A stretch of 46,074 bases of DNA, from positions 1 to 46,074 of the forward strand of contig JAJZEE010000022.1 in NCBI GenBank assembly GCA_021805735.1, in the 5' to 3' direction. The position numbers and the translations under genes are program-made. This document shows, piece by piece, positions 31,015 to 44,881 of the stretch. Position 1 is the stretch's first letter. Each line of letters starts with the position of its first letter. The notes under the pieces are model-generated. The model had not been told where the DNA came from and did not search any database. It saw only the letters and a list, made by a program, of their open reading frames with translations. This stretch comes from Bacillota bacterium. GTDB lineage: Bacteria; Bacillota; Bacilli; Alicyclobacillales; SLC66.

Positions 31015-31061
31015 TGGAGCGGATGACGGGATTCGAACCCGCAACTTTCAGCTTGGGAAGC
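31015..31061 (-). pseudogene. 3' half of tRNA-Gly(CCC): attachment-site remnant
   Basis: Read on the minus strand this contains the anticodon loop TTCCCAA (anticodon CCC), the 3' anticodon strand GCTGA, a full T arm (GCGGGTTCGAATCCCGT), the acceptor strand CATCCGC, discriminator T and CCA. The 5' anticodon strand is broken (TACGC where TCAGC is expected) and no D arm or 5' acceptor strand follows. This is the duplicated att core left when an element integrates into a tRNA 3' end. Confidence 0.8.
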
Positions 31062-31254: not shown

Positions 31255-32757
31255 TTGGAGATCACGGTATATCCTTACACACTGGTCGAAACTCGCTTGC
31301 CGCTTATCACTTATAGGAAGTCTCGTTGCCATCGGCACAACAACGAACTGGCCACGCAGATGGATACAGACAGATTCAAGCCGCGTGTTCTCGGAACACT
31401 CCCAACTGGATCCGAGATGTTCATGGACGGTGGAGAGTTCAGACCCCATGCCACGGTGGAGAACTTGGCCGTCATCTATGCACTGGATATGCCGCCCGCC
31501 GTGCGCTCTTTTGCCGCAGACCGTACGGGTCGAAGTTTCTTGTTATCGTTCGATCCCTTCCATCTTCTCGCTACGTGGGCATTAGGTGGATTAAGGCGCC
31601 AGTGTGACGTTGACGAAGTGCTGAACGCCTTTCGCGAGTTGAAGTTGTCGGGTGGTCTATACGTGACGTCGACGGACAGGGAGAAAATCAAGAGCTTTGT
31701 GGCTGAATATGGCTTATTCGTTCCCTTCACTCCGCCTGGTTCGCCCCCAAGTACGATCTGGAACGTATGTCACAGGATGCAGATGTATTCCAGCGGCTAC
31801 CCGAACTACGAATACGCCAGGTCTGAACTGGGTTTCTACGATTTGTTCGCGCAGTGGCAAACAACCGAAACGGACATTGAGAAGGCCGGCAAACAAGGAC
31901 CTGTCAGTGAATCTCAGGTGGAAGCGCTCGGTCTTATGAGGCGGGCATGTATGCAGGTTGGCCAAACGGTTTCGGCGGGTGGCAAGTCCACTCGGCTCGA
32001 ACGTGTTCAAGTTCCGCTTGTGCGCGCGGAAGGAGCGGCGGCATTGGTGGAAAAGTTGGAGTTGGATTTGAATTCGCAGAACAAGACGTTTCGCGATGAA
32101 GTGCTGATGACGGCCCTGCAGGAGTACGGCAAGGTCGCGATACACGGCGAGTTAGACCGTTTGAAGAACGAATTACCAACTGTCGGCGAATACGGGTTAC
32201 GAGGAATCGTGCGGGAAGATGAAACGATCACAAAGAAATTGGAGCGGTTGGACGAAATGACTGCCCGCGACGTAACCGAAGAAGAACGCAACGCCTTTTT
32301 ATCGGTGATGAAAAAGGCGGGACTCGACGGGCGGTCAATGTCGCAAGAAATTCGCTACCTGCTTACGCCGCAGTCTGACACCGAATCATTTAGACACGGG
32401 AAATATGGCGACAATACGGCACGGCAGGCGTACACGAACGAACGACGTCGTGATGAAATTCGGAAGGAAATAGAGCGATATGAATACATCGAAACCATGG
32501 TCGGGAGCGCATTGCAGGTTCTTTGGGAGCGAGAACCGCATGAAGCTGAATTGTTGCAGAGGAGACACGTAAAAGGTGAATTGGAGATTGATACAATCCT
32601 GGGGATGAAGCTCGGTAAAGACCAGTACAACAAGACACCGTATAACAATCTCCGGCGCAAGGCGCTTGATCATCTCAACGAACTCTGCCCGGCTGATTCA
32701 ATCTATCCTTACTTGCGCGAGATCGTGAAAAAGCGTGGAACAAAGGCCGGAGCGTGA
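31255..32757 (+). CDS. Unknown 500-residue element protein with C-terminal HTH-like region
   Basis: This 500-residue protein opens the element and I do not recognise its family. The middle is charged and helical. The last 80 residues (HEAELLQRRHVKGELEIDTIL, then YNKTPYNNLRRKALDHL) resemble the region-4-like helix-turn-helix of ArpU-type phage regulators and sigma factors. No tyrosine- or serine-recombinase motif is present, so it is not the integrase. TTG 31255 has GAGGTG five bases upstream; a downstream ATG at 31360 lacks a good site. It is directly under the SOS-box promoter and may be a damage-responsive regulator or replication factor. Confidence 0.75.
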   Translation: MEITVYPYTLVETRLPLITYRKSRCHRHNNELATQMDTDRFKPRVLGTLPTGSEMFMDGGEFRPHATVENLAVIYALDMPPAVRSFAADRTGRSFLLSFDPFHLLATWALGGLRRQCDVDEVLNAFRELKLSGGLYVTSTDREKIKSFVAEYGLFVPFTPPGSPPSTIWNVCHRMQMYSSGYPNYEYARSELGFYDLFAQWQTTETDIEKAGKQGPVSESQVEALGLMRRACMQVGQTVSAGGKSTRLERVQVPLVRAEGAAALVEKLELDLNSQNKTFRDEVLMTALQEYGKVAIHGELDRLKNELPTVGEYGLRGIVREDETITKKLERLDEMTARDVTEEERNAFLSVMKKAGLDGRSMSQEIRYLLTPQSDTESFRHGKYGDNTARQAYTNERRRDEIRKEIERYEYIETMVGSALQVLWEREPHEAELLQRRHVKGELEIDTILGMKLGKDQYNKTPYNNLRRKALDHLNELCPADSIYPYLREIVKKRGTKAGA

Positions 32758-32884: not shown

Positions 32885-33091
32885 ATGAATCAAGACACAA
32901 CCGCCACACTTCGCCCCCGCGTTAGCGCAAAGCGAATCGCCGAAATGTACGACATGTCCGAGGCTGCCATCCAGCGCTATGCGCGACTGGGTCAAATTCC
33001 GTGCGTGCGTATCGGCAAGCTTGTCCGTTTCGACCCTGTTGAGGTTGAAGCTGCGTTGGTCGGGCAGGCGGATTCTCTCGAAGTCATGTAG
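32885..33091 (+). CDS. Small helix-turn-helix protein (excisionase/MerR-like)
   Basis: A 68-residue protein. The segment VSAKRIAEMYDMSEAAIQRY with ARLGQIPCVRIGKLVRFDPVEVEAAL is the winged-helix HTH_17/excisionase pattern found in AlpA and Xis proteins, where the recognition helix is followed by a wing with VRIG-KLVRF. It could be an excisionase, a regulator of the replication genes, or an origin-binding protein. ATG 32885 has AGGGAGG upstream. A terminator/attenuator precedes it and paired hairpins follow it. Confidence 0.8.
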   Translation: MNQDTTATLRPRVSAKRIAEMYDMSEAAIQRYARLGQIPCVRIGKLVRFDPVEVEAALVGQADSLEVM

Positions 33092-33123: not shown

Positions 33124-33163
33124 GGCGCTCCAAGCGACGAATCCAGGTCGCACTGTGAGCGCC
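33124..33163 (+). repeat. Nested hairpin before the primase-polymerase gene
   Basis: GGCGCTC (33124-33130) pairs with GAGCGCC (33157-33163), enclosing GCGAC/GTCGC (33134-33138 with 33147-33151). A T-rich TATTTGTTT follows. It may be an attenuator, or part of a replication origin together with the previous hairpin. Confidence 0.5.
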
Positions 33164-33193
33164 TATTTGTTTGCTCAGAAAGGAGCGAGTTCA

Positions 33194-34117
33194 ATGGATA
33201 ACAAAGAAGCCGCCTCGGCGGGGGCGGCTCGATCCGAAAACTTCACTGCTTCCATTGTACCACACTTCAAACGCGAAATCGACAAAAGTGTTTACGCGGT
33301 TACCGTCAAACGCGGCTGGCCCGTAATGCTGCAATGGGGCGTAACGGATGGCATATGTGCCTGTCCCAAAGGTGCCGATTGTGCGCATCCGGGCAAACAC
33401 ACTCACGGCGAGTCTTGGATTGCGGTCACGTATGCGGGTGACGAATTGGGATACAGTGAATGGCTCAAATTTACAAGTTCTATCCCGGACCCGAACTATG
33501 GCCTGCGACTCGATTTGTCCGGCAACTGTGTCGTGGACCTTGATCGGCACCATGATGGTCAAGACGGAATTGCCCGTTGGACAGAAATGACGGTGGGGCA
33601 TCAAGTGGACGCGACATTTACAGTCGAGAGCGGCGGCGGTGGACTTCAGTTTCATTACGAGTGCCCAGATTGGCTGACGCAGCGTGCGGACCTTAGCGAT
33701 GGAGTCGAACTGCTCACGAAGACCGTGACTGGCCCCGGCAGCATGCACGCAAGCGGCAGACGTTATCGCGTGCTTGACCCTTCCCCGGTGGTTCCCATGC
33801 CGGGCTGGATGCAGGATGAGCTACGGCGGCGCATCGGCACGCAGCGCAGAGCCGATGATGGCAGGCCCGTGCGGATGGCGGACGGCGACCCACGACTGGA
33901 ACAGTTGCGCACCTGGTCAGAAGCTGGACTGTCCGATGAGCGCAATCGCGCGGCGGTGGCGCTGTACGGGATGCTCATTGCACACGGCGTCGACGTATAC
34001 GTTGCACGCCAATTCATGAGTCATTGGAATGCAGACAACGCCACTCCCCTACCACAACGAATTCTACGCGACGTCTTGACCTCTGTTTTGCGGATGGAGG
34101 CCCGAAAAAGTGGCTGA
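33194..34117 (+). CDS. Bifunctional DNA primase/polymerase (Prim-Pol)
   Basis: A 307-residue protein with an N-terminal archaeo-eukaryotic-type Prim-Pol domain. The family features are a cysteine cluster with GKH (CACPKGADCAHPGKH), the metal-binding VDLDRHHDGQDG and the glycine-rich SGGGGLQFHY. It would make primers and possibly extend them during element replication. ATG 33194 with AAAGGAGCGAG upstream is preferred over an in-frame GTG at 33155. The coding sequence just after the start folds into a 7-bp hairpin. It overlaps the next gene by eight bases. Confidence 0.85.
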   Translation: MDNKEAASAGAARSENFTASIVPHFKREIDKSVYAVTVKRGWPVMLQWGVTDGICACPKGADCAHPGKHTHGESWIAVTYAGDELGYSEWLKFTSSIPDPNYGLRLDLSGNCVVDLDRHHDGQDGIARWTEMTVGHQVDATFTVESGGGGLQFHYECPDWLTQRADLSDGVELLTKTVTGPGSMHASGRRYRVLDPSPVVPMPGWMQDELRRRIGTQRRADDGRPVRMADGDPRLEQLRTWSEAGLSDERNRAAVALYGMLIAHGVDVYVARQFMSHWNADNATPLPQRILRDVLTSVLRMEARKSG

Positions 34118-35459
34118 CCTGACGCCGGAAGAACAAGTGTTCGCCAGAAAAATGGCGAAGAAGACTGCAAAGGTGAAAGACGCCATGCGAGAGGCAGACA
34201 TTTCACCGCCTGCTGCCACGCTCAAAATAAAGAATCTGGGCGACGTCGAACCGGCCCGTGTTTCTTGGATGTGGTACCCCCGCATCCCGTACGGATACAT
34301 CACACTCGTAGACGGCGACCCCGGCGTGGGGAAATCGTGGCTGACCCTTGCACTGGCCGCCGCCGTTAGTAATGGCTTGACGCTGCCTGGACAAGAGGTA
34401 AGCCCAGTGGTGGGCGACGTGTTGCTAATCGGGGCTGAAGACGGAATAGCCGAGACGATAGTTCCACGTTTGATCGCAGTCGGGGCTGATCGGAGCCGTG
34501 TCGATATCATTGAAGCTGTGACAGAATACGACGGCGAGCGCGTGGTAGACCTGTCTCGGCATCTTCCAGAGATCGAGGCGGCTTTTTCGAAGAAGCAATA
34601 TAAAATGCTGATCATCGACCCCATTCAGGCGCATCTCGGATCTGGCACCGACATGCACCGCGCCAACGAAACACGAGCCGTTCTTGCACCACTTGCACAA
34701 CTCGCCAGTCGCCAAAAGTGCGCGGTCCTTCTGGTCCGTCACATGCGGAAATCATCGGGTGACAACTTGATGTACCGGGGTCTCGGTAGTATTGACATTG
34801 CCGGAGCATCCAGATCGATTCTGATGGTTGGCGAGGACCCGGATAACCCCAATCGTCGCGGTGTTGTGCATGTCAAGGCATCGATGGCAGCGAAGGCTCC
34901 CCCCATCGCTTATACACTAACCGACGGCAAATTCGCGTGGGATGGGGAAGCACCGGAACTCGCCGGTAATCGAATGTTCAGCGGCCAACCGGACGAAGAG
35001 GATAGCGCGGTCGATGTGGCTACAAAGTTCCTCCGTGACACGCTGGAGGGCAGAGAATTAAGCGCAACTTTCGTCTATGAGAACGCCGCCGCTTCCGGCA
35101 TCAAACGTCGAACGCTCGAACGAGCCAAAAAGGACTTAGCGGTACGCAGTGAGAAACGTGGCAAGGAGTGGTACTGGAAACTGCCGTCGCCCACATTGAC
35201 GGAATCAACACCGCCAGCCCCTATAGGGGGAAACGTTGGCGATGTTGCGATGTTCCCTGAAAACCCTGTAACAGCACGGCTAGACGGACTTTCTGGAGAA
35301 GAAAAGAACATCGTCATTGGCGATCTTCCCGAAGAGGCTGAAAACCCAGTAGTGGCGCGGCTTGACGGTCAAGATCGCAACATCGCCAAGCAAAAACGTG
35401 ACGATGATAACGCGGTCGCAAAATTGGAAATTACAAAAGCCGAATTGGAGGCTTATTGA
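34110..35459 (+). CDS. RepA-like hexameric helicase ATPase (AAA_25)
   Basis: A 449-residue RecA-fold protein. Walker A is GDPGVGKSWLTLA and Walker B is MLIIDPIQAHLG. The AAA_25/RepA family region HMRKSSGDNLMYRGLGSIDIAGASRSILMV follows. A C-terminal helical and charged tail (from about residue 300) looks like a winged-helix domain plus linker. It is probably the replicative helicase or its loader, acting with the Prim-Pol encoded just upstream. The GTG start overlaps the Prim-Pol stop. Confidence 0.85.
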   Translation: MADLTPEEQVFARKMAKKTAKVKDAMREADISPPAATLKIKNLGDVEPARVSWMWYPRIPYGYITLVDGDPGVGKSWLTLALAAAVSNGLTLPGQEVSPVVGDVLLIGAEDGIAETIVPRLIAVGADRSRVDIIEAVTEYDGERVVDLSRHLPEIEAAFSKKQYKMLIIDPIQAHLGSGTDMHRANETRAVLAPLAQLASRQKCAVLLVRHMRKSSGDNLMYRGLGSIDIAGASRSILMVGEDPDNPNRRGVVHVKASMAAKAPPIAYTLTDGKFAWDGEAPELAGNRMFSGQPDEEDSAVDVATKFLRDTLEGRELSATFVYENAAASGIKRRTLERAKKDLAVRSEKRGKEWYWKLPSPTLTESTPPAPIGGNVGDVAMFPENPVTARLDGLSGEEKNIVIGDLPEEAENPVVARLDGQDRNIAKQKRDDDNAVAKLEITKAELEAY

Positions 35460-35461
35460 CG

Positions 35462-35872
35462 ATGAATCCTGCGCAGATCGTGGATACGTTTCGTACACTA
35501 GGCGCGTCGATGTGGTTGGACAATGGACGAATCATGGTCCGTCCAAGTCCGCATCTCACGGATGTACATCGAACTGCATTGCGCGAGAATCGAGACGCAG
35601 TTGCCGCCTACCTAGCAGTGTCTTTCACGCTCACGGAAGACGGCTTGCCTATTACCATATCGGGTGAGAAGTCAGACGCACTCGCCCACTACGACGAAGC
35701 CGTCTTACAGACCGCGAGACTGCCGCGCGACACGGTTCATACGGTCACACTGGCAGATGCTACGGGCAAGTTGTTGCGACTGGCCCACTTCCCGCCATGC
35801 GAGGAGGTGATGCTGCATGCGCAGACGGACGAGGACCGGGGTGCCCTACATCGAGCAAGCGCGACGGGATGA
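35462..35872 (+). CDS. TubC_N-like docking-domain protein
   Basis: A 136-residue protein. Its N-terminal 50 residues (IVDTFRTLGASMWLDNGRIM, then RTALRENRDAVAAYLA) fit the TubC N-terminal docking-domain fold, a small alpha-beta module known from NRPS/PKS subunits but also found in plasmid and phage replication loci. The rest is unassigned. The ATG at 35462 follows GGAGG. The end overlaps the next small gene out of frame by 56 bases. It may link replication proteins, but that is inferred. Confidence 0.7.
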   Translation: MNPAQIVDTFRTLGASMWLDNGRIMVRPSPHLTDVHRTALRENRDAVAAYLAVSFTLTEDGLPITISGEKSDALAHYDEAVLQTARLPRDTVHTVTLADATGKLLRLAHFPPCEEVMLHAQTDEDRGALHRASATG

Positions 35873-36014
35873 TACGCATATGGATGTGCTGTGGAAACGG
35901 CTGTATCCGTGTGGATGGACGAGCATCAAAACGATGGCCCGGGGTGTGTCGGACCGCGAAGCAGAGCGGCAAGCGCGGGAAATCGCAGAGTTTTACGAGA
36001 CAAGGAGACGATGA
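35817..36014 (+). CDS. Small basic protein of unknown function
   Basis: A 65-residue Arg-rich protein, not recognised. It has an excellent GAGGAGGTG at 35801-35809, eight bases before its ATG, although it starts inside the previous gene. The C-terminal part (DREAERQAREIAEFYETRRR) should be a helix. It ends one base before the helicase start, so the three genes are tightly coupled. Confidence 0.65.
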   Translation: MRRRTRTGVPYIEQARRDDTHMDVLWKRLYPCGWTSIKTMARGVSDREAERQAREIAEFYETRRR

Positions 36015-36015
36015 A

Positions 36016-37443
36016 ATGACCACAGAAACACTAAACCCCCCGCTACGAACGAGGGGCGCAATCGAAGCATCCAAGACGCTCAGTATACACCTAACGATAG
36101 GCGGTGACATCCGCATACCCTTGAATTCGATCCCGCAGCCTTTGCTGGAGATCATCACGGCGGATCTGACGCTCGACAATCCGGCGTATGCGTCCGCTGT
36201 GCGCATGGGGCGCTATACGGGTAATATCCCGCAACGGCTGACGATGTGGGCGTTAGAGGAAGGCATCCTCACCGTGCCCCGCGGCTATGGGCAAACGCTC
36301 CTGAAACGCTGCCGAACACTCGGTATTCAGTTTGTGACCGATGATCGGCGCTTGACGCTGCCACCTGTCACGTTTGAGTCACGCATCAAGCTTCGCCCGT
36401 ATCAGGTGCTGGCGGTGGAACGCCTTGTGCAGATGCTGGCGGGTGGCCTCGTTGCCCCTTGTGGCTCAGGCAAAACGACGGCTGGCCTGAAGGCCATCGC
36501 TGATGTCGGACAACCGGCCTTGGTGATAGTCGCGACTCTCGAATTGGCACTGCAATGGATCGATCGGGCTACGCAATTCCTCGGCATCCCCCGTGAAGAG
36601 ATCGGGCTGATTGGCAACGGAAAACGCACCATCGGCACACGGCTCACCGTTGGTCTGGTGCAGACGCTATCTAAGATGGACTTAACGGAGATTCGTGAGC
36701 GGTTCGGACTGGTGATACTCGATGAGGCGCACCACGCCCCCGCTTCGACGTTTCAACGAGTGTTCGCAGCCTTCCCTGCAATATACCGCCTATGGCTTTC
36801 TGCCACACCAGAACGGCAGGATGGATTGCATCCGATCCTGTACGCGGTTGGCGGTCCGATCCTGCATACGATTAGCCGGGCTGACTTACCGACGGTCACG
36901 CCAGTGTTACGGGTCATTGAGACGGACTTCACGGACTGCGACGACGACTATAGCGCCTTACTCACAAGGCTCACGCAAGACGAACGTCGAAACCGCTTGA
37001 TCGTGGACGCCATCGCGCAGAACGCACTCGGACATTACAGCCTTGTCCTGAGTGAACGTGTGGACCATCTGGAGGTGCTTCACAAGATGCTGGCAGACAT
37101 CTCCCCTAACCTACGCGCGGCAACGCTCACGGGCCGTATGAGCAAGCGCGAACGCGAACAGACGATGGCTGCCATACAGGCCCGCGAGATTGATGTCCTG
37201 TTTTCTACACAACTGGCCCGCGAAGGACTGGACATCGTGCATCTCGATCAACTTTTTATGACATGCCCCAAACGCGCCGCATCGGCAGTTGAGCAGGAAA
37301 TCGGCAGGATCATGCGCCCTGCGGAGGGCAAGGCAGGAGCGACGGTATGGGATTTTTGGGATTCCGGCAGTCCGATGCCTCGCGGACAGTTTTGGCGGCG
37401 CAGGGATGTGTACCGGAAACTAGGCATGGAGGTGAGCGTATGA
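36016..37443 (+). CDS. SF2 DEAD/DEAH-box DNA helicase
   Basis: A 475-residue superfamily 2 helicase of the XPB/ERCC3-like phage type. An N-terminal domain of about 115 residues precedes IKLRPYQ (Q-motif position) and Walker A PCGSGKTTAG. Then come DEAHHAP (motif II), SATPERQDG (motif III) and the motif VI region EQEIGRIMRPAEGK. It likely unwinds or remodels DNA in element replication or recombination. ATG 36016 follows AAGGAGA; an out-of-frame ATG at 36011 and upstream in-frame starts are rejected. It overlaps the HAD-like gene by four bases. Confidence 0.88.
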   Translation: MTTETLNPPLRTRGAIEASKTLSIHLTIGGDIRIPLNSIPQPLLEIITADLTLDNPAYASAVRMGRYTGNIPQRLTMWALEEGILTVPRGYGQTLLKRCRTLGIQFVTDDRRLTLPPVTFESRIKLRPYQVLAVERLVQMLAGGLVAPCGSGKTTAGLKAIADVGQPALVIVATLELALQWIDRATQFLGIPREEIGLIGNGKRTIGTRLTVGLVQTLSKMDLTEIRERFGLVILDEAHHAPASTFQRVFAAFPAIYRLWLSATPERQDGLHPILYAVGGPILHTISRADLPTVTPVLRVIETDFTDCDDDYSALLTRLTQDERRNRLIVDAIAQNALGHYSLVLSERVDHLEVLHKMLADISPNLRAATLTGRMSKREREQTMAAIQAREIDVLFSTQLAREGLDIVHLDQLFMTCPKRAASAVEQEIGRIMRPAEGKAGATVWDFWDSGSPMPRGQFWRRRDVYRKLGMEVSV

Positions 37444-38528: not shown

Positions 38529-38837
38529 ATGAAATCAGATGACTTCGTGGAATTCCTCGCACTGCGCGACGAGTTCAAGGAACTGGACGGGCGCACGGAT
38601 GCACTAGCGGAAACCTATAAACACGGCACGCCTGTGGACTCCTCTCGCATCGCGCATGAACTGGGGCTGGTGTCGTACAAGATCGCGGCCAACCTGCGGA
38701 ATTTGACAGCTTTTCTGGAGCGAGCGAAGGATACTCGCAATGCAGAAGAAGCCGCGATTCTGGCGGACCTGCTGGGAACCGTACGGACGCTTCAGAAACA
38801 GACGAGAGCGACAGCGCTCAAATGGAGACACGCCTAA
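38529..38837 (+). CDS. Small helical protein of unknown function
   Basis: A 102-residue acidic, helical protein (FLALRDEFKELDGRTDALAE, and a second helix pair in the C-terminal half). Not recognised. ATG 38529 has AAGGAGATAAG upstream; the earlier in-frame start at 38433 has none. It precedes the RuvC-like gene by 14 bases. Confidence 0.65.
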   Translation: MKSDDFVEFLALRDEFKELDGRTDALAETYKHGTPVDSSRIAHELGLVSYKIAANLRNLTAFLERAKDTRNAEEAAILADLLGTVRTLQKQTRATALKWRHA

Positions 38838-38851
38838 GGGGAGGTGAGAGT

Positions 38852-39394
38852 GTGACTCGTATTCTGGCTATTGATCACGGGTCGCGTCTATGCGGGTGGG
38901 CCGTAGCAGATGACGGAGCGATACAAGAGTTCGGCCTGATACGAATGGAGACCGTTTATCCCCGCACATTGGTCGAGTTATCCCGACGCGTCAGAAGCCT
39001 ACTGCGCGATCACGAGCCGGATGTGGTGGCCTTGGAACGGCCCATGAGCCTGCGCGGCGGCCACGTGGCGCAAGTACTGATTGAACATTACGCAGTCTGC
39101 AAGCTGGCAGCCCTCCAAGCCGGGATATCCACACAGGAAGTAGCTCCACCCACGATCAAACTCATCGTAGCTGGCGCGGGAAACGCCGACAAGCAGACTG
39201 TCGCAGAGTCGTTGTGTATCAAATATGGGCTTGATCTTGAAGACCTTTGCCCGGCAGAGCGGTATAAGGCCGGAGCGCGCAAGGGAGAAGTAAAAACGAG
39301 AGCATGGGACGCTTCGGATGCGTGCGCGTTGGCTGTCGCCGCAGTGGAGATGTTGAGGCGCGAACTTACGGCAAACAACGCCGCAAATGGATAG
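38852..39394 (+). CDS. RuvC-like Holliday junction resolvase
   Basis: A 180-residue RNase H-fold nuclease. The catalytic acidic residues are visible: LAIDHGSRLCGWAV (first Asp), VVALERP (Glu) and WDASDACALAVAA (C-terminal Asp pair). Phage RuvC-like enzymes resolve branched DNA before packaging. The start is GTG 38852 with GGGGAGGTG upstream. A conserved replication-to-packaging transition is suggested by the TerS-like gene directly after it. Confidence 0.85.
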   Translation: MTRILAIDHGSRLCGWAVADDGAIQEFGLIRMETVYPRTLVELSRRVRSLLRDHEPDVVALERPMSLRGGHVAQVLIEHYAVCKLAALQAGISTQEVAPPTIKLIVAGAGNADKQTVAESLCIKYGLDLEDLCPAERYKAGARKGEVKTRAWDASDACALAVAAVEMLRRELTANNAANG

Positions 39395-39406: not shown

Positions 39407-39811
39407 GTGGCACGTCGGGTGAATGAAAAGCGAGATAGGCGTAGGGAACTGGCGGTCGCCGCTCTTCTGGAGGTTCCAACCATACAGGAGGCGGCCAAAG
39501 CGTCAGGTGTTGGGCTGACGACCCTCCATCGCTGGATACGCGAAGATATCGAATTCCAGACCGCTTATCGCGAAGCGAAGCGACGGGCGCTCGACCAAGC
39601 GATTGCGCGGCTGGCGGTCATTTCGTCGCAGGCCGTGGAGACCTTGCGCGAGGTGATGGGCGATGCAGAGGCTCCGGCCAATGCCCGCGTGTCGGCAGCC
39701 AAGGCGGTGCTTGACGCGGCATTCAAAGCGTCGGAGACGGAAGACTTGGCGGTCAGAGTTACGGAACTGGAACGCCTTGCTTCAAACCAAAACCAAGGGA
39801 GGACTGCATAA
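39407..39811 (+). CDS. Terminase small subunit-like HTH protein
   Basis: A 134-residue protein with a homeodomain-like HTH (VAALLEVPTIQEAAKASGVG, then TTLHRWI) followed by a long helical region and an FKASETEDLAVRVTELERL coiled coil. This pattern (phBC6A51-type) is found in phage small terminase subunits, which bind the packaging site. A general phage DNA-binding protein is the alternative. The start is GTG 39407. No large-terminase gene follows in the window. Confidence 0.65.
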   Translation: MARRVNEKRDRRRELAVAALLEVPTIQEAAKASGVGLTTLHRWIREDIEFQTAYREAKRRALDQAIARLAVISSQAVETLREVMGDAEAPANARVSAAKAVLDAAFKASETEDLAVRVTELERLASNQNQGRTA

Positions 39812-40080
39812 TGGCATCGAATAACCTTGAAAACCGAATCGCGAAACTGGAAAGTGCAATACGCGCATCGGGCGCAACCGAAGAACCGACGTATCACATT
39901 CGTGACGCGCTACTCGCTCAAAAGGGCGGCAAGCAGGTATGGCGGCAGATCACGCGGACGCTATCGTCCAAGGACCCGCAGACGGCATATGGACAGTTAT
40001 TGATAGCCGATCCTACGCTTGAGAATCGGTTGCTGGAGGCCGGGCAAGCGGCACGAAAGGGGGCGAAGGCTCATGCTTGA
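39811..40080 (+). CDS. Small protein of unknown function
   Basis: An 89-residue protein whose first 20 residues (NLENRIAKLESAIRAS) form a short coiled coil. Not recognised. The ATG shares a base with the previous stop (TAATG) and has AGGGAGG upstream. Its end overlaps the next start. Confidence 0.7.
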   Translation: MASNNLENRIAKLESAIRASGATEEPTYHIRDALLAQKGGKQVWRQITRTLSSKDPQTAYGQLLIADPTLENRLLEAGQAARKGAKAHA

Positions 40081-40414
40081 CTTTGTGGGCTGGCGGTCAC
40101 GAGAATTTAAGAAGTGGCATGCGACATTTTGGGATCGGTTGGCCGTTTACCGGGAGCATCAAACGCCGGGGTACAAGATCGGTCTGCGTGAAGCCGCGCG
40201 GGAAATGTCGTGGCATGCTTGCCAGCAACTCCGGTTCGCGACGACGAGTTACGAAGTCTTCGAAGGGTCCGAACATCGCCAAACGTTGCTGGACCTGCTC
40301 GCAGACGCACAGGAAGCCGCTGCGCAGGCGCGGAAAGTATGGCGGGCACTGCGTGATATGGGCATCGACACGCCGGAGGAATTCCCGGACATTTTCGAGG
40401 GAGATACGATTTGA
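40073..40414 (+). CDS. Small helical protein of unknown function
   Basis: A 113-residue protein rich in Trp, Arg and Ala (FVGWRSREFKKWHATFW at the start). It is probably helical and is not recognised. ATG 40073 follows AAGGGGGCGAAGG and overlaps the previous gene by eight bases. Confidence 0.68.
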   Translation: MLDFVGWRSREFKKWHATFWDRLAVYREHQTPGYKIGLREAAREMSWHACQQLRFATTSYEVFEGSEHRQTLLDLLADAQEAAAQARKVWRALRDMGIDTPEEFPDIFEGDTI

Positions 40415-40431
40415 CAAAGGAGATGTTAACA

Positions 40432-40842
40432 TTGGCAAACAATGATCCGGTTATCAACCCATTTGAAACCTTAAGCGCTCTACTCGACCAGTTCACCGTT
40501 CGCGCGGAATTGTATCGCGATGCGCGCGCGGCATATGTCGAACACAATCAACCCGTAGACTTGGCACTCGTGCAGCACCATGCAGGCGGACTTGTTGGCG
40601 CGGTCGTACTCGCTTCGCAATTATCGCGTGTGCTCGAATCAGAGTTACGGATGTCGTATGTCGATCCTGAAGCCGCGCGAATTGGGAGCATGGGCGTAGA
40701 CGCTGTAAAGGACGCACGGATTGCTGCCGGTTCCGTAATCCAGGACCTGCGGACGTTGACGGGGATACCGTTCGGGAGTGGGGATGCAGAGTGCTTGGCG
40801 ATGGTGGCAGAATCACGACTCAATGCAGAAGGGGTGATGTAA
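40432..40842 (+). CDS. Small helical protein of unknown function
   Basis: A 136-residue, mostly helical protein with no recognised domain. TTG 40432 is chosen because AAAGGAG lies nine bases upstream; the ATG at 40423 is directly against that site, and the TTG at 40411 precedes it. It is followed after one base by the tape-measure-like gene, so it may be a tail or assembly factor. Confidence 0.65.
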   Translation: MANNDPVINPFETLSALLDQFTVRAELYRDARAAYVEHNQPVDLALVQHHAGGLVGAVVLASQLSRVLESELRMSYVDPEAARIGSMGVDAVKDARIAAGSVIQDLRTLTGIPFGSGDAECLAMVAESRLNAEGVM

Positions 40843-40843
40843 A

Positions 40844-43366
40844 ATGCCAGAACTCCGATTTAACACGTCCGCCGACCTCACGGGATTCCGCGACATCGAC
40901 GCAGCATTGGACAAACTGCAAACCCGCGTCAAGAGCATCTCAGCCGATATGCAGAAGATGGGCGCGTTCCAGAACGCCGAATCAGCGTCAGGCGGCATCG
41001 CTGTGGGCGGCGGGGGCGGCCTGCAATACGGCCCTCGCCAGCAAGGCGGTCAGGCGCCCAGTGGTCATGCGCAGCCGCAAGGCCCTGCGCGGCGTCCGAG
41101 AGGCGGCAGTAAGCCGCAGTATGACCTGAGTACACAAGGCGGCGTCATCGAGTATTACGACAACGTGCTCGCCCAGGCGCTGCCGATGCTCTCGGCCATG
41201 AATCCAGCGGGTACGCCAAGAGCATCCATCGGCGCGTCGCATCGGCAATCTGCGGGAGGATTGCAGAATGTGTCTGGGATGGTGCCGATTCTTGGCAGCC
41301 ACCTGCGTTCCAAAGCCTATCCTGGATCGGCTCAGTGGTACAACGATTGGCTGACACGTGCGAGCCAACCCGACATTCAGTCAGTTGTTGGTTCGTCTGT
41401 TGCTGAAGAATTGGCGGGTGCACACAGCGCTCTTCTGATGGGCGAAGAGGGCGCGGGGAGGGTTGCCTTTCAGCGGTTATCCAGTGAGGCGAATCAACCC
41501 TCTCAACCGTCTCGGGTTTCTCGGCGACAGTCGCTGTGGCAACACTTCGCGCGCTCGGCCAAGGGGAGCAACATCGGAGGCATTCTGTCAAGTGGATTGC
41601 GCGGAGCCGCCATCGGAACCATGGCCGAATCCGCCATTGGTGGCGGCTCGGCGGGACTGCTCGGCGGGGCGGGCGGCGGAGGCGCGGCGACGGCTCTCAT
41701 GGGCGGCGCGGATGTCGGCGGCCTTTTGATGAACCCCGCGACACTTGCGGCGATGGTTCCTATCGCGGCCGTGACGTTTCTGGCATCCGCATTCAAATCG
41801 GGATACAGCAACTGGCAACAGACGGCCCCCACATCTTCGCAGCTCGCGCACGGTTTGGGAACGGTCGGCCAGGGCGCGAACGTATTGAATCTCAGCATCC
41901 AAAAGGCTGCAGCCGCATTCGGGATCATGGGCACGACGGCTCTCCAATCGGCGCAGATGATGGCGCAGGCGTTTGGCGGCAACAATGCGTCCGTGACGAA
42001 TCTGACCGGGCAGGCGGCAAAGTTCGCCATGTACAACGGGCTCAGCGACCAGCAACAGTCGCAGATCATGTCCGCGATGGGCACGTTGGGCATCACTTCA
42101 GGCAAGGGGTCAACGCTCACACCGTACGCGGGCAACCGGATGCTAACCCAACTGACGCAAGCCTCGCATATGCAAGGCCGTCAGGGCCCGCTCTTTACGG
42201 GCCTTACGTCGATCTACGGAACACTGGCGAGCATCAACCCGACGATCAGCAACCCGACGGGCGTAGCAGGCCAGTATGCGGCCATGAACGCATCCGGCAT
42301 CCAAGGCTTGCAGGGCATGCGCGGGGCGGCTCTCGTCTCGCAGATGGATCAGGGATTCGCGAGCGCGAAGGGAATTCAGCAACTGCTCGGGTTCTCCGCG
42401 ATCATGAAGGCGAGCGGCGGCAAGATCACGAATCCGTATCAAATGATGTCGATTGCGGAACAAGGGAGCGCTGCTCTCATTCCCGGTACGCATACAACGT
42501 ACGGCGCTGCCTTTCTGAACCAGCTCAAGGGAATTACCTCAGATCCTTACCTGCAAGGAGCGCTCATGCCCGGCCTTGATATCAATCAGGGGATGGCCGT
42601 CATCAAGAGCGGTGCATTGAATGCGCCGGCGTTGCATGTGCCTCAAGGGGCGCTCCCCCTACACCTGACACAAGCGGATAAACACGCGATTGCGGCGGCG
42701 CAAAGCACTTATCAGAAAGCGAAAACCGGACAAACGGGCGGCGTCATGTCAACGGCTTGGGACCGGGCGCAGGCCACGGTCATGCAAGCGATCACTCATC
42801 TTTCCGGTTACATCGGCGCAATTCCGAATCAAGTGACATCGATTCTTAGCGGCTCCTATCTGAATCATCCGCCGTCGCAAATGGCTCCCTATGCGCTGAA
42901 GGTTTCTAAAGCAACGGGGATTCCGGCGGCTTACATTCTTTCGCAATGGATGCATGAGTCTACTTGGGGAACATCCCATGCAGCTCGGCAGAACGAGAAC
43001 CTGGCTGGCATCAAACCATTTGGCCCCTACAAGTCGGGCGCCGACGCCAAATATGCGGGATTCTCGTCGCTCGCCCAGTTCGCACAAGCGGACACGCAGG
43101 TGCTGATGCAACCCCAGTACGCGCATGCTCGGGCACTCGCGCAGCATGGCGCATCAGCACAGGCAGTGTTTTCGGCGTTGGCCTCTGAAGGCTATACGGG
43201 TTCGCCGACGCCGACGCAGGCCAGCGCATACGGATCTGAAATTCAGGCCATCGTCAATGAATTCGCGGTCAAGATACAGGCGGCCATGGACGTAGCCCTG
43301 ACGAAGCATCGGCAGGCGCAAAAGCGGGATAGGCAGGCGGCGACACCGCAAGGGCCGCATAGGTAA
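40844..43366 (+). CDS. Tape-measure-like protein with C-terminal glucosaminidase domain
   Basis: An 840-residue protein. The N terminus (FNTSADLTGFRDIDAALDKL) resembles the start of phage tape measure proteins. The middle is Gly/Ala-rich and hydrophobic with a likely membrane-spanning stretch (LMNPATLAAMVPIAAVTFLA). The C-terminal region from about 690 to 780 fits a GH73/lysozyme-like muramidase or glucosaminidase: ILSQWMHESTWGTSHAARQ carries the catalytic Glu, then NENLAGIKPFGPY. Tape measures set tail length and often carry such wall-cutting domains. It follows RBS AGAAGGGGTG. No other tail genes are next to it. Confidence 0.75.
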   Translation: MPELRFNTSADLTGFRDIDAALDKLQTRVKSISADMQKMGAFQNAESASGGIAVGGGGGLQYGPRQQGGQAPSGHAQPQGPARRPRGGSKPQYDLSTQGGVIEYYDNVLAQALPMLSAMNPAGTPRASIGASHRQSAGGLQNVSGMVPILGSHLRSKAYPGSAQWYNDWLTRASQPDIQSVVGSSVAEELAGAHSALLMGEEGAGRVAFQRLSSEANQPSQPSRVSRRQSLWQHFARSAKGSNIGGILSSGLRGAAIGTMAESAIGGGSAGLLGGAGGGGAATALMGGADVGGLLMNPATLAAMVPIAAVTFLASAFKSGYSNWQQTAPTSSQLAHGLGTVGQGANVLNLSIQKAAAAFGIMGTTALQSAQMMAQAFGGNNASVTNLTGQAAKFAMYNGLSDQQQSQIMSAMGTLGITSGKGSTLTPYAGNRMLTQLTQASHMQGRQGPLFTGLTSIYGTLASINPTISNPTGVAGQYAAMNASGIQGLQGMRGAALVSQMDQGFASAKGIQQLLGFSAIMKASGGKITNPYQMMSIAEQGSAALIPGTHTTYGAAFLNQLKGITSDPYLQGALMPGLDINQGMAVIKSGALNAPALHVPQGALPLHLTQADKHAIAAAQSTYQKAKTGQTGGVMSTAWDRAQATVMQAITHLSGYIGAIPNQVTSILSGSYLNHPPSQMAPYALKVSKATGIPAAYILSQWMHESTWGTSHAARQNENLAGIKPFGPYKSGADAKYAGFSSLAQFAQADTQVLMQPQYAHARALAQHGASAQAVFSALASEGYTGSPTPTQASAYGSEIQAIVNEFAVKIQAAMDVALTKHRQAQKRDRQAATPQGPHR

Positions 43367-43403: not shown

Positions 43404-44144
43404 TTATTTAATTTTTGTTGAACCCGGAAGTGCGGTCGCGATCCAAGGGGCTACGGCCGAAAGACTCGGCTCTTGTCCGTTGTGGTTTATGATGCGATTA
43501 TCGAGAGCCCACAGCCCTGCCACCCCCGCTCTTGTGGACGAAAACATCTCTAAGTCCATGCCTTTGCGATTGTAGGCTTCAACCATGATACCTCCAACGT
43601 CGGCGGGGTATGGTTGAAGCCTAAAATTCGCTATCACGCCTCGGAATAAAGCGAGATTCAGAATAGCTATTGCCGACGCCGCAGGATCGATCTTGTTTTT
43701 GATATACCACGGCGTAGCTCCGACGAGTTGATTGAATATGTTTTGTGAAATAACATGAGGGGCTTTGGTTTCTACTCGGAATATCCACGCAACAGCAGAA
43801 GCGGTCTTGCCGGCGCGGACCCATCGTATTTGATAAGGAACGAATGTAAAACTCACGCCTTCGTAATTGAATTGAATTTGGCTATGATTGAACGAAAAAG
43901 ATCCATGCCCTTGTGTGAAAACGGAAATCTGGTGTTTCAAAAGGGGCGCGTCGTAAAGAAAACTTGTTACGCTCAACAAATAATCATGAAATGCCAACGT
44001 CGTTCCGTGCATCGGAGTAAAACCGTAGACTTGTCTGTGATCAGTATATGATGATGCAGCTTCGGCCGGAACCGCACTCATCATCGCTGTTTCACAGGTC
44101 AGCAGCAGGGCGGATAGCGTGAGTGCGGGCCATGTGAGTTTCAT
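43404..44144 (-). CDS. Secreted element protein of unknown function
   Basis: A 246-residue exported protein. It begins MKLTWPALTLSALLLTCETA with a typical signal peptide, likely cut after AEA (residues about 30-32). The mature part is rich in aromatic residues and beta strands (QIQFNYEGVSFTFVPYQIRW). Not recognised. ATG 44144 follows AAGGGGG on the minus strand; an earlier in-frame ATG adds eight residues. Being single and reversed relative to the tail-like operon, it looks like a lysogenic-conversion (cargo) gene. Confidence 0.72.
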   Translation of the reverse strand: MKLTWPALTLSALLLTCETAMMSAVPAEAASSYTDHRQVYGFTPMHGTTLAFHDYLLSVTSFLYDAPLLKHQISVFTQGHGSFSFNHSQIQFNYEGVSFTFVPYQIRWVRAGKTASAVAWIFRVETKAPHVISQNIFNQLVGATPWYIKNKIDPAASAIAILNLALFRGVIANFRLQPYPADVGGIMVEAYNRKGMDLEMFSSTRAGVAGLWALDNRIINHNGQEPSLSAVAPWIATALPGSTKIK

Positions 44145-44200
44145 GTGATCCCCCTTCTTTTTAGCCAAAACGTACCACTAAGCGATTGAGTCTGCAAGAG

Positions 44201-44614: not shown

Positions 44615-44881
44615 CTAGGCGTCCACATTCTCGCTCTCCAATTTTGGAGAGTCACCGCTTCTCACCACGACCTGAAACCCGCATAATTCCGCGATGCGCA
44701 GGAAGTCCTTTAACCGAATCTGACCGTTATTAACCGCTACACGGAGCGTAGTTTCATTGATTTCCATACCCCGAGCAACCGAAGCCAAACTTCGGACGCC
44801 CGATCTGGCAATCATTTGGCGGATGGCCGTCTTAATGTCGGTATCCCTCATATCGATTTCAATAGTACTCACCACGTTCAT
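44615..44881 (-). CDS. XRE-like repressor of the element
   Basis: An 88-residue protein with a lambda-repressor-like HTH (IRQMIARSGVRSLASVARGM, then EINETTLRVAVNNGQIRLKD) and a short acidic tail. It fits the small Cro/CI-type regulators of phages and plasmids. AGGAGG is very close to ATG 44881, so GTG 44875, nine bases from that site, may be the true start. It has a strong minus-strand promoter overlapping operator-like repeats and lies divergent from the 45.2-kb operon. No peptidase domain is present, so it is not itself a LexA-cleaved type. Confidence 0.78.
   Translation of the reverse strand: MNVVSTIEIDMRDTDIKTAIRQMIARSGVRSLASVARGMEINETTLRVAVNNGQIRLKDFLRIAELCGFQVVVRSGDSPKLESENVDA

Follow-up and report, generated by a model that had tools for sequence, protein, structure and literature searches.

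The window analysed here is a stretch of 46,074 nucleotides from a Bacillota bacterium that makes up the entire contig C134 of genome G000, and from position 31015 onwards it carries an integrated element in which a gene for a putative small terminase subunit (TerS) stands close to one for a homologue of phage tape measure proteins (TMPs). The TerS-like protein of 134 aa, a member of a satellite-associated family (39407..39811, + strand), is followed on the same strand by genes for an 89-aa protein (39811..40080), a 112-aa protein (40077..40414, start at 40077) and a 143-aa protein (40411..40842, TTG start), the last of which lies directly before the gene of the 840-aa TMP homologue (40844..43366). 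An earlier sequence-only reading had described this layout, with three small genes and no large terminase (terL), portal or capsid gene between the two, and the open reading frames (ORFs) are indeed present at these positions. The small proteins were given there as 89, 113 and 136 residues long; the first length was reproduced, and the other two most likely correspond to the 112- and 143-aa ORFs with other starts. The 89-aa protein has a counterpart with 89% identity over 83 aa in a sibling element of the same genome. Neither the 112-aa nor the 143-aa protein matches a Pfam or PHROG family, and the 143-aa gene, which occupies the usual place of a tail assembly chaperone, is a candidate for this function by position.

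The 840-aa protein gave no direct match to any family annotated as tape measure in Pfam or PHROG. Its sole Pfam match is PF01832 Glucosaminidase (1.4e-14), with endolysin-type PHROGs over the same part, and this domain covers residues 681-806 (42884..43261, +); in an alignment with FlgJ, Glu705 of the window protein falls on the catalytic FlgJ glutamate. AlphaFold predicted the hydrolase tip in isolation with low confidence (pLDDT 47), and this model was not used. The identity of the protein came from its N-terminal body. A profile of this body and two relatives, searched against 59 genomes of the order, matched, in addition to both copies of G000, proteins in G056, G049 and G051. Contig G051:C22 is a phage structural cluster with PHROG matches to portal, major head protein, sheath and baseplate wedge, in which a 143-aa tube-like protein (weak match) and two small genes positioned like those of assembly chaperones are followed by a gene for an 896-aa protein. 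The latter shares 41% identity over 613 aa with the window protein, starting from the first residue, as well as a hydrophobic segment, and differs from it in the C-terminal part; the window copy also stands without other tail genes. No PHROG or Pfam family matches the 896-aa protein itself, which is called a TMP because of its gene position, after the sheath and tube-like genes and before the baseplate genes of a contractile-tailed cluster in the same order, and because of the homology. A further homologue found by profile match in G147 follows genes read as sheath, tube and chaperones, at a locus outside the family scans, so that at two loci a homologue occupies the position of a TMP among phage genes. 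All five TMPs compared contain a hydrophobic stretch, and the window protein starts without a signal peptide. Judged by sequence, the 840-aa product is homologous to tape measure proteins.

Scans of genome-contig and viral-contig collections with the TMP body confirmed no relatives, the window and G051 TMPs had no matches among the phage records, and the TMP of the sibling element on contig C148 had two weak ones there, of which one is annotated as the tape measure protein of Bacillus phage Adastra (8e-3). The search of 398 genomes of the class returned G000 and G147 only, and that of plasmids a single match, CP071185.

The TerS-like protein matches phrog_4044 (1.1e-6) and three more PHROG terminase families below 1e-3, and its Pfam Sf6_terminase match falls below the family cut-off. 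Its predicted structure is helical (pLDDT 84.5), with the phage protein 2ao9 as top fold match (E 0.03) and Sf6 TerS at 0.56. Searching 50,697 phage records with the window TerS gave 16 matches, every one of them a Streptococcus satellite phage. Of the 56 records matched by its homologue in G337, 53 carry the name Streptococcus and 3 the name Bacteriophage, and satellite phages accounted for 40 of 40 among the matches listed, suggesting that this TerS family marks satellites. TerS matches were found in 4 of 151 genomes in the first search and in 39 of 398 in the class, mostly weak; we counted only loci of at least 88 bits (8 genomes, 9 loci) plus G056 from the first search, giving ten intact strong loci, namely the window, C148, G056, G065, G131, G186, G337, G194, G258 and G384. 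A locus in G297 was left out of the count owing to a stop inside TerS; this stop-bearing relative lies beside an integrase fragment (G297:C1:1012321-1012624) and represents a decayed satellite. Weaker loci in G039, G022, G027 and G357, and 16 viral contigs found as weak matches by the TerS profile, likewise stand outside the count.

Host genes, including hepS-menG-hepT-ndk-cheR homologues and a flavin reductase gene, extend up to ~31.0 kb. The element begins with a 47-bp att repeat (31015..31061, −) formed by the 3' part of tRNA-Gly(CCC), of which an identical copy lies at C100:3150-3196, within an intact tRNA-Gly(CCC) gene (ARAGORN) and adjoining an integrase. The far end of the element was thus traced to contig C100, and its integrase is encoded downstream of the TMP in the same direction, with a repressor-like gene between the two. 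In the sibling element, the 47-bp att on C148 matches tRNA-Pro(TGG) on C154, again adjoining an integrase. The two integrases (381 and 400 aa; 65% identity over 369 aa) are the longest ORFs in C100:1-3200 and C154:1-4600. We infer the window-C100 and C148-C154 joins from att pairing, and the element sizes of ~18.9 kb (window) and ~21.8 kb (sibling) are estimates for which the other element served as a ruler across the unsequenced junctions. Joining the window to C154 was considered and rejected, as the 158-bp overlap is just 97% identical and the att repeats instead pair the window with C100 (tRNA-Gly) and C148 with C154 (tRNA-Pro). Within the genus, where the comparison covered G000, G001 and G002, G001 has the tRNA without such an element, and there a single contig carries DNA resembling the left flank of the window and the right flank on C100, separated by 2.4 kb of other sequence. 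In G002 the start of a related element is found at the same tRNA-Gly (204 bp at 96% identity, G002:C148:17033 onward), and a 553-aa gene is present there where the window has a 500-aa protein lacking a family match.

The remaining genes of the window element start with this 500-aa protein at the att end (31255..32757, +; no Pfam or PHROG match), in place of which C148 carries, on the opposite strand, a gene for 437 aa that looks unrelated. It is followed by an HTH_17 protein (32885..33091, +; PF12728, 6.3e-7), presumably an excisionase, and by a replication module comprising a Prim-Pol primase (33155..34117, +; PF09250, 2.3e-16), a replicative-helicase-like AAA ATPase (34110..35459, +; PF13481, 4e-30, with PHROG primase/helicase matches) and a DEAD/ResIII helicase (35797..37443, +; PF04851, 1.2e-24; phrog_16, 7.1e-61), the real start of which may lie further inside the ORF. 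A HAD-like phage protein (37347..37751, +; phrog_1238, 2.7e-26), several small genes and a RuvC-like resolvase (38822..39394, +; PF02075, 3.4e-13; phrog_159, 4.1e-24) precede the TerS gene. The TMP gene is adjoined by a gene for a 254-aa protein with a signal-peptide-like start (43404..44168, −; no family match), followed by an 88-aa repressor-like HTH protein (44615..44881, −; phrog_4583, 4.7e-4), 98% identical in the sibling, and by small genes up to the contig end (45213..46074, +), beyond which the element runs on into C100. Small proteins 122-129 aa long recur in two pairs, one on C100:358-729 and C154:1201-1587 (~61% identical, no PHROG match) and one at G056:21618-22007 and G049:37384-37752 (~39% identical); the C-terminal halves of both pairs look alike by eye.

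Among the element proteins scanned against PHROG and Pfam, none matched a terL, portal, capsid, tube, sheath or baseplate family, and no conjugation family was matched either; the ORFs outside these scans (C148 8406-9377 and 11435-11830, most of C154:1-2765 and two of C100) do not exceed 131 aa. The statement of the sequence-only reading that no other tail genes follow the TMP held for tube, sheath and baseplate families among the scanned proteins. It had also set against its own suggestion the case that portal, capsid and large terminase genes lie just right of the window; C100 shows the integrase and the intact tRNA there instead of head genes, across a short unsequenced gap, and the refuting arrangement was thus sought without being found.

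The sibling element has TerS and TMP in the same order, and this repetition within one genome shows that the TerS-to-TMP layout is not a matter of chance. Related layouts occur outside this genome. G337 carries an element of 14.4 kb between 55-bp repeats, with genes for an integrase, Prim-Pol, TerS, small proteins, a TMP (phrog_1686, 7.4e-118) and a DUF308 membrane protein. The family of this TMP is common in phages (1,261 matching records), and the window-type TMP profile misses the protein, so that G337 appears, by sequence, to be an independent case in which a related TerS is combined with an unrelated, certain TMP. The G131 element (G131:C1:1795996-1808678; 12.6 kb between 97-bp repeats) encodes an integrase, DnaC- and DnaD-like proteins, a TMP so named because of its homology to that of G337, TerS, a scaffold and a major head protein; no portal or large terminase was recognised in it. 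This satellite may bring its own head protein plus its own tape measure. The match on plasmids, CP071185.1, is a circular plasmid of Alicyclobacillus curvatus (56.9 kb) that encodes Prim-Pol, DUF3987, a helicase and a TMP as well as annotated TerS and PBSX-type TerL, and has no annotated capsid or portal in a gene table that is incomplete. Its recombinase and ParA genes have similar counterparts on G056:C108 (Alicyclobacillus tolerans BL-1), where a TMP relative is also present.

The TMPs are mosaic. In the tree of TMP bodies, C148 and G056 are split from the window, G051 (phage) and G049 (plasmid) with 100/100 support, and the TerS tree pairs the window with C148 (95/94); the conflict between these trees shows that one element swapped its TMP body while the neighbouring genes stayed. 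The tips of the window and C148 TMPs are a common glucosaminidase (54% over 84 aa), whereas that of G056 is SLT, that of G049 Phage_lysozyme2, and none was recognised in G051. It appears that the TMP body is matched to a helper phage and the C-terminal hydrolase is swapped as a module. Because the tips group unlike either the TerS or the body tree, we put forward the hypothesis, from five proteins, that bodies track the helper phage and tips track the wall of the host.

The att repeats, the integrase, the replication genes, the satellite-type TerS, the full-length TMP homologue and the lack of head genes among the families found, as well as the TerS-plus-TMP layout in more than one lineage, make it likely that this region belongs to a phage satellite integrated at tRNA-Gly(CCC) in a member of the Alicyclobacillus order and forms the end of it devoted to packaging and tail manipulation; the satellite TMP would replace that of its helper to give chimeric tails. 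This was the first option offered by the sequence-only reading, and the same evidence favours it. Helper use and incorporation of the TMP are both predicted by this reading, and hybrid tails would probably be made from another phage's parts. Upon infection by a contractile-tailed helper, the element would excise and replicate via its own Prim-Pol and helicases, and the satellite TerS would steer the helper large terminase onto satellite DNA. The satellite TMP would take the place of the helper TMP, with tube, sheath and baseplate supplied by the helper, and the resulting chimeric tail would have a length set by the satellite and carry the satellite glucosaminidase, opening the wall of the next cell.

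A precedent is found in the phage-inducible chromosomal island-like element (PLE) of Vibrio cholerae, likewise an integrated satellite with its own TMP and a contractile-tailed helper, for which the passages covered of a recent report describe a PLE TMP that is present in PLE virions with the helper TMP excluded, tails shorter by ~10 nm, and a cut in transduction by 96 to ~99.9% upon tmp deletion (PMC12987554, 2026). The window element shares with PLE a satellite-encoded TMP, and the best reading by analogy is that it would work like a PLE-type chimeric-tail satellite. Unlike PLE, it belongs to another host phylum, has no recognised PLE genes and no recognised chaperone or hub gene, and carries a TMP with a wall hydrolase tip and TerS beside the TMP.

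Several observations weigh against the satellite reading with chimeric tails. The profile matches behind the TerS assignment are weak, with the unrelated hypothetical protein 2ap3 leading among PDB profiles (4.2e-4) and Sf6 TerS at 0.06, and the fold searches gave mostly common helical arrangements, PaP3 TerS (Z 6.6) among those rows. A TMP is present at five of the ten strong TerS loci (window, C148, G056, G131 and G337) and at none of eight Streptococcus satellites, absence being judged here with two local TMP profiles only; the weaker TerS loci L101-L103, outside the ten, have no TMP match either. The pairing of the window and G051 TMPs has a support of 80/81 alone, and the core-region tree does not resolve it. 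The host genome gave no match to phrog_2 terminase, phrog_12 portal or a G051-type sheath, the families searched there, and a resident helper is therefore not apparent. In contrast to PLE, the neighbourhood of the TMP contains no gene recognised as a chaperone or hub homologue; the 112- and 143-aa genes before it, considered for a PLE-type tail chaperone (TAC), match no Pfam or PHROG family. Finally, both element junctions are deduced via att pairing across an unsequenced gap.

The most serious alternative keeps the satellite and makes its TMP homologue a decoy that jams helper tail assembly, the DNA travelling with the helper's own TMP. The closeness of the body to a phage TMP would suit a decoy, and satellites are known to interfere with tail assembly, as described for Rta of PLE11 in the passages covered (PMC12987554). 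An intact hydrolase tip would be needless for this purpose, yet the glutamate is kept, and the tips, though varied, can be recognised in three of the four compared types from satellites or plasmids; moreover, the PLE satellite TMP is built into virions according to the same passages. We thus regard a decoy as improbable. That a decayed prophage has kept TerS and TMP by accident, the second option of the sequence-only reading, would account for the RuvC and HAD-like phage genes, and both TMP and TerS are ordinary phage genes. However, both frames are open in the two co-resident elements and on the G056 contig, the repeat-bounded elements of G337 and G131 also carry TerS and TMP, and TerS matches satellite records rather than phages, which leaves decay very unlikely. 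Its third option, a wall-cutting protein serving another purpose, here as a plasmid-like or conjugative element opening the wall for DNA transfer, has TMP relatives on the A. curvatus plasmid CP071185 and on the A. tolerans contig with ParA- and recombinase-like genes in its favour, but is the least credible of all given that no conjugation family was matched among the scanned element proteins, that the homology to a protein encoded next to sheath and tube extends beyond the hydrolase to the N-terminal body, that the 840-aa protein starts without a signal peptide and that the plasmid itself has TerS and TerL genes.

Among satellites of Bacillota, the window element resembles the Streptococcus satellite phages of the Javan set (GenBank MK448xxx) in its tyrosine integrase, primase, same-family TerS, small size and lack of recognised particle genes, and differs from them in the place of its integrase, which lies downstream of the TMP at the other end, and in the TMP itself, absent from the eight examined. 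It shares further features with phage-inducible chromosomal islands (PICIs), as an integrase with att repeats at a fixed site and an own primase-type replication module with TerS are present. Canonical PICIs have the order int, divergent regulators, replication and TerS. This order is seen in the Javan records and not in the window element, which for this reason is PICI-like rather than a PICI. Capsid-forming PICIs (cf-PICIs) are defined by capsid, portal and terL genes; the window element is not one of these, since no own capsid, portal or packaging genes of this kind were matched among its scanned proteins.

The gene following the TMP deserves attention. By reading, it has a signal peptide, a lipoprotein-like start or a transmembrane segment at seven of eight TMP loci, of which six are satellite- or plasmid-borne and two belong to phages; in G147 the segment is internal, and the G131 gene has none of these features. 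At a fixed hydrophobicity cut-off, five of the eight pass, compared to 5 of 108 background ORFs, three of which are the same genes; the 254-aa gene of the window falls below the cut-off (1.41) and was included for its signal-peptide look. Five of these genes were scanned, with one clear family match, DUF308, in G337, and this membrane gene may belong to the host and have been trapped between the repeats. The pattern was noticed after the fact. Phage exclusion proteins such as HK97 gp15 and Ltp of TP-J34 act on the tape measure. It is a tentative and rather doubtful idea that the TMP, its body suited to the helper and its hydrolase to the host, makes up a portable module for delivery and exclusion together with the exported product of the next gene, and that this exported protein would block the entry of particles carrying that TMP.

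Putative tmp genes occur in some cf-PICIs according to the passages covered of the PLE report (PMC12987554). A search by title and start of abstract in the PMC literature, with preprints outside PMC and the hosts of the tmp-bearing cf-PICIs lying beyond its reach, returned no report of a TMP in a Bacillota satellite, and the passages covered of the EfCIV583 and AH14 papers contain nothing on a satellite TMP. Compared to known satellites, the new aspect is the Gram-positive case together with mosaic TMPs, in which a phage-like body is joined to an exchangeable wall-cutting tip. Two such elements lie in one Gram-positive genome, and related layouts with an unrelated TMP family occur in other Bacilli; with two unrelated TMP families in satellites of Bacilli, TMP capture looks convergent. 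The separate exchange of bodies and tips suggests a benefit, in that a satellite may bring its own wall-opening tip on the tail of any helper that is present.

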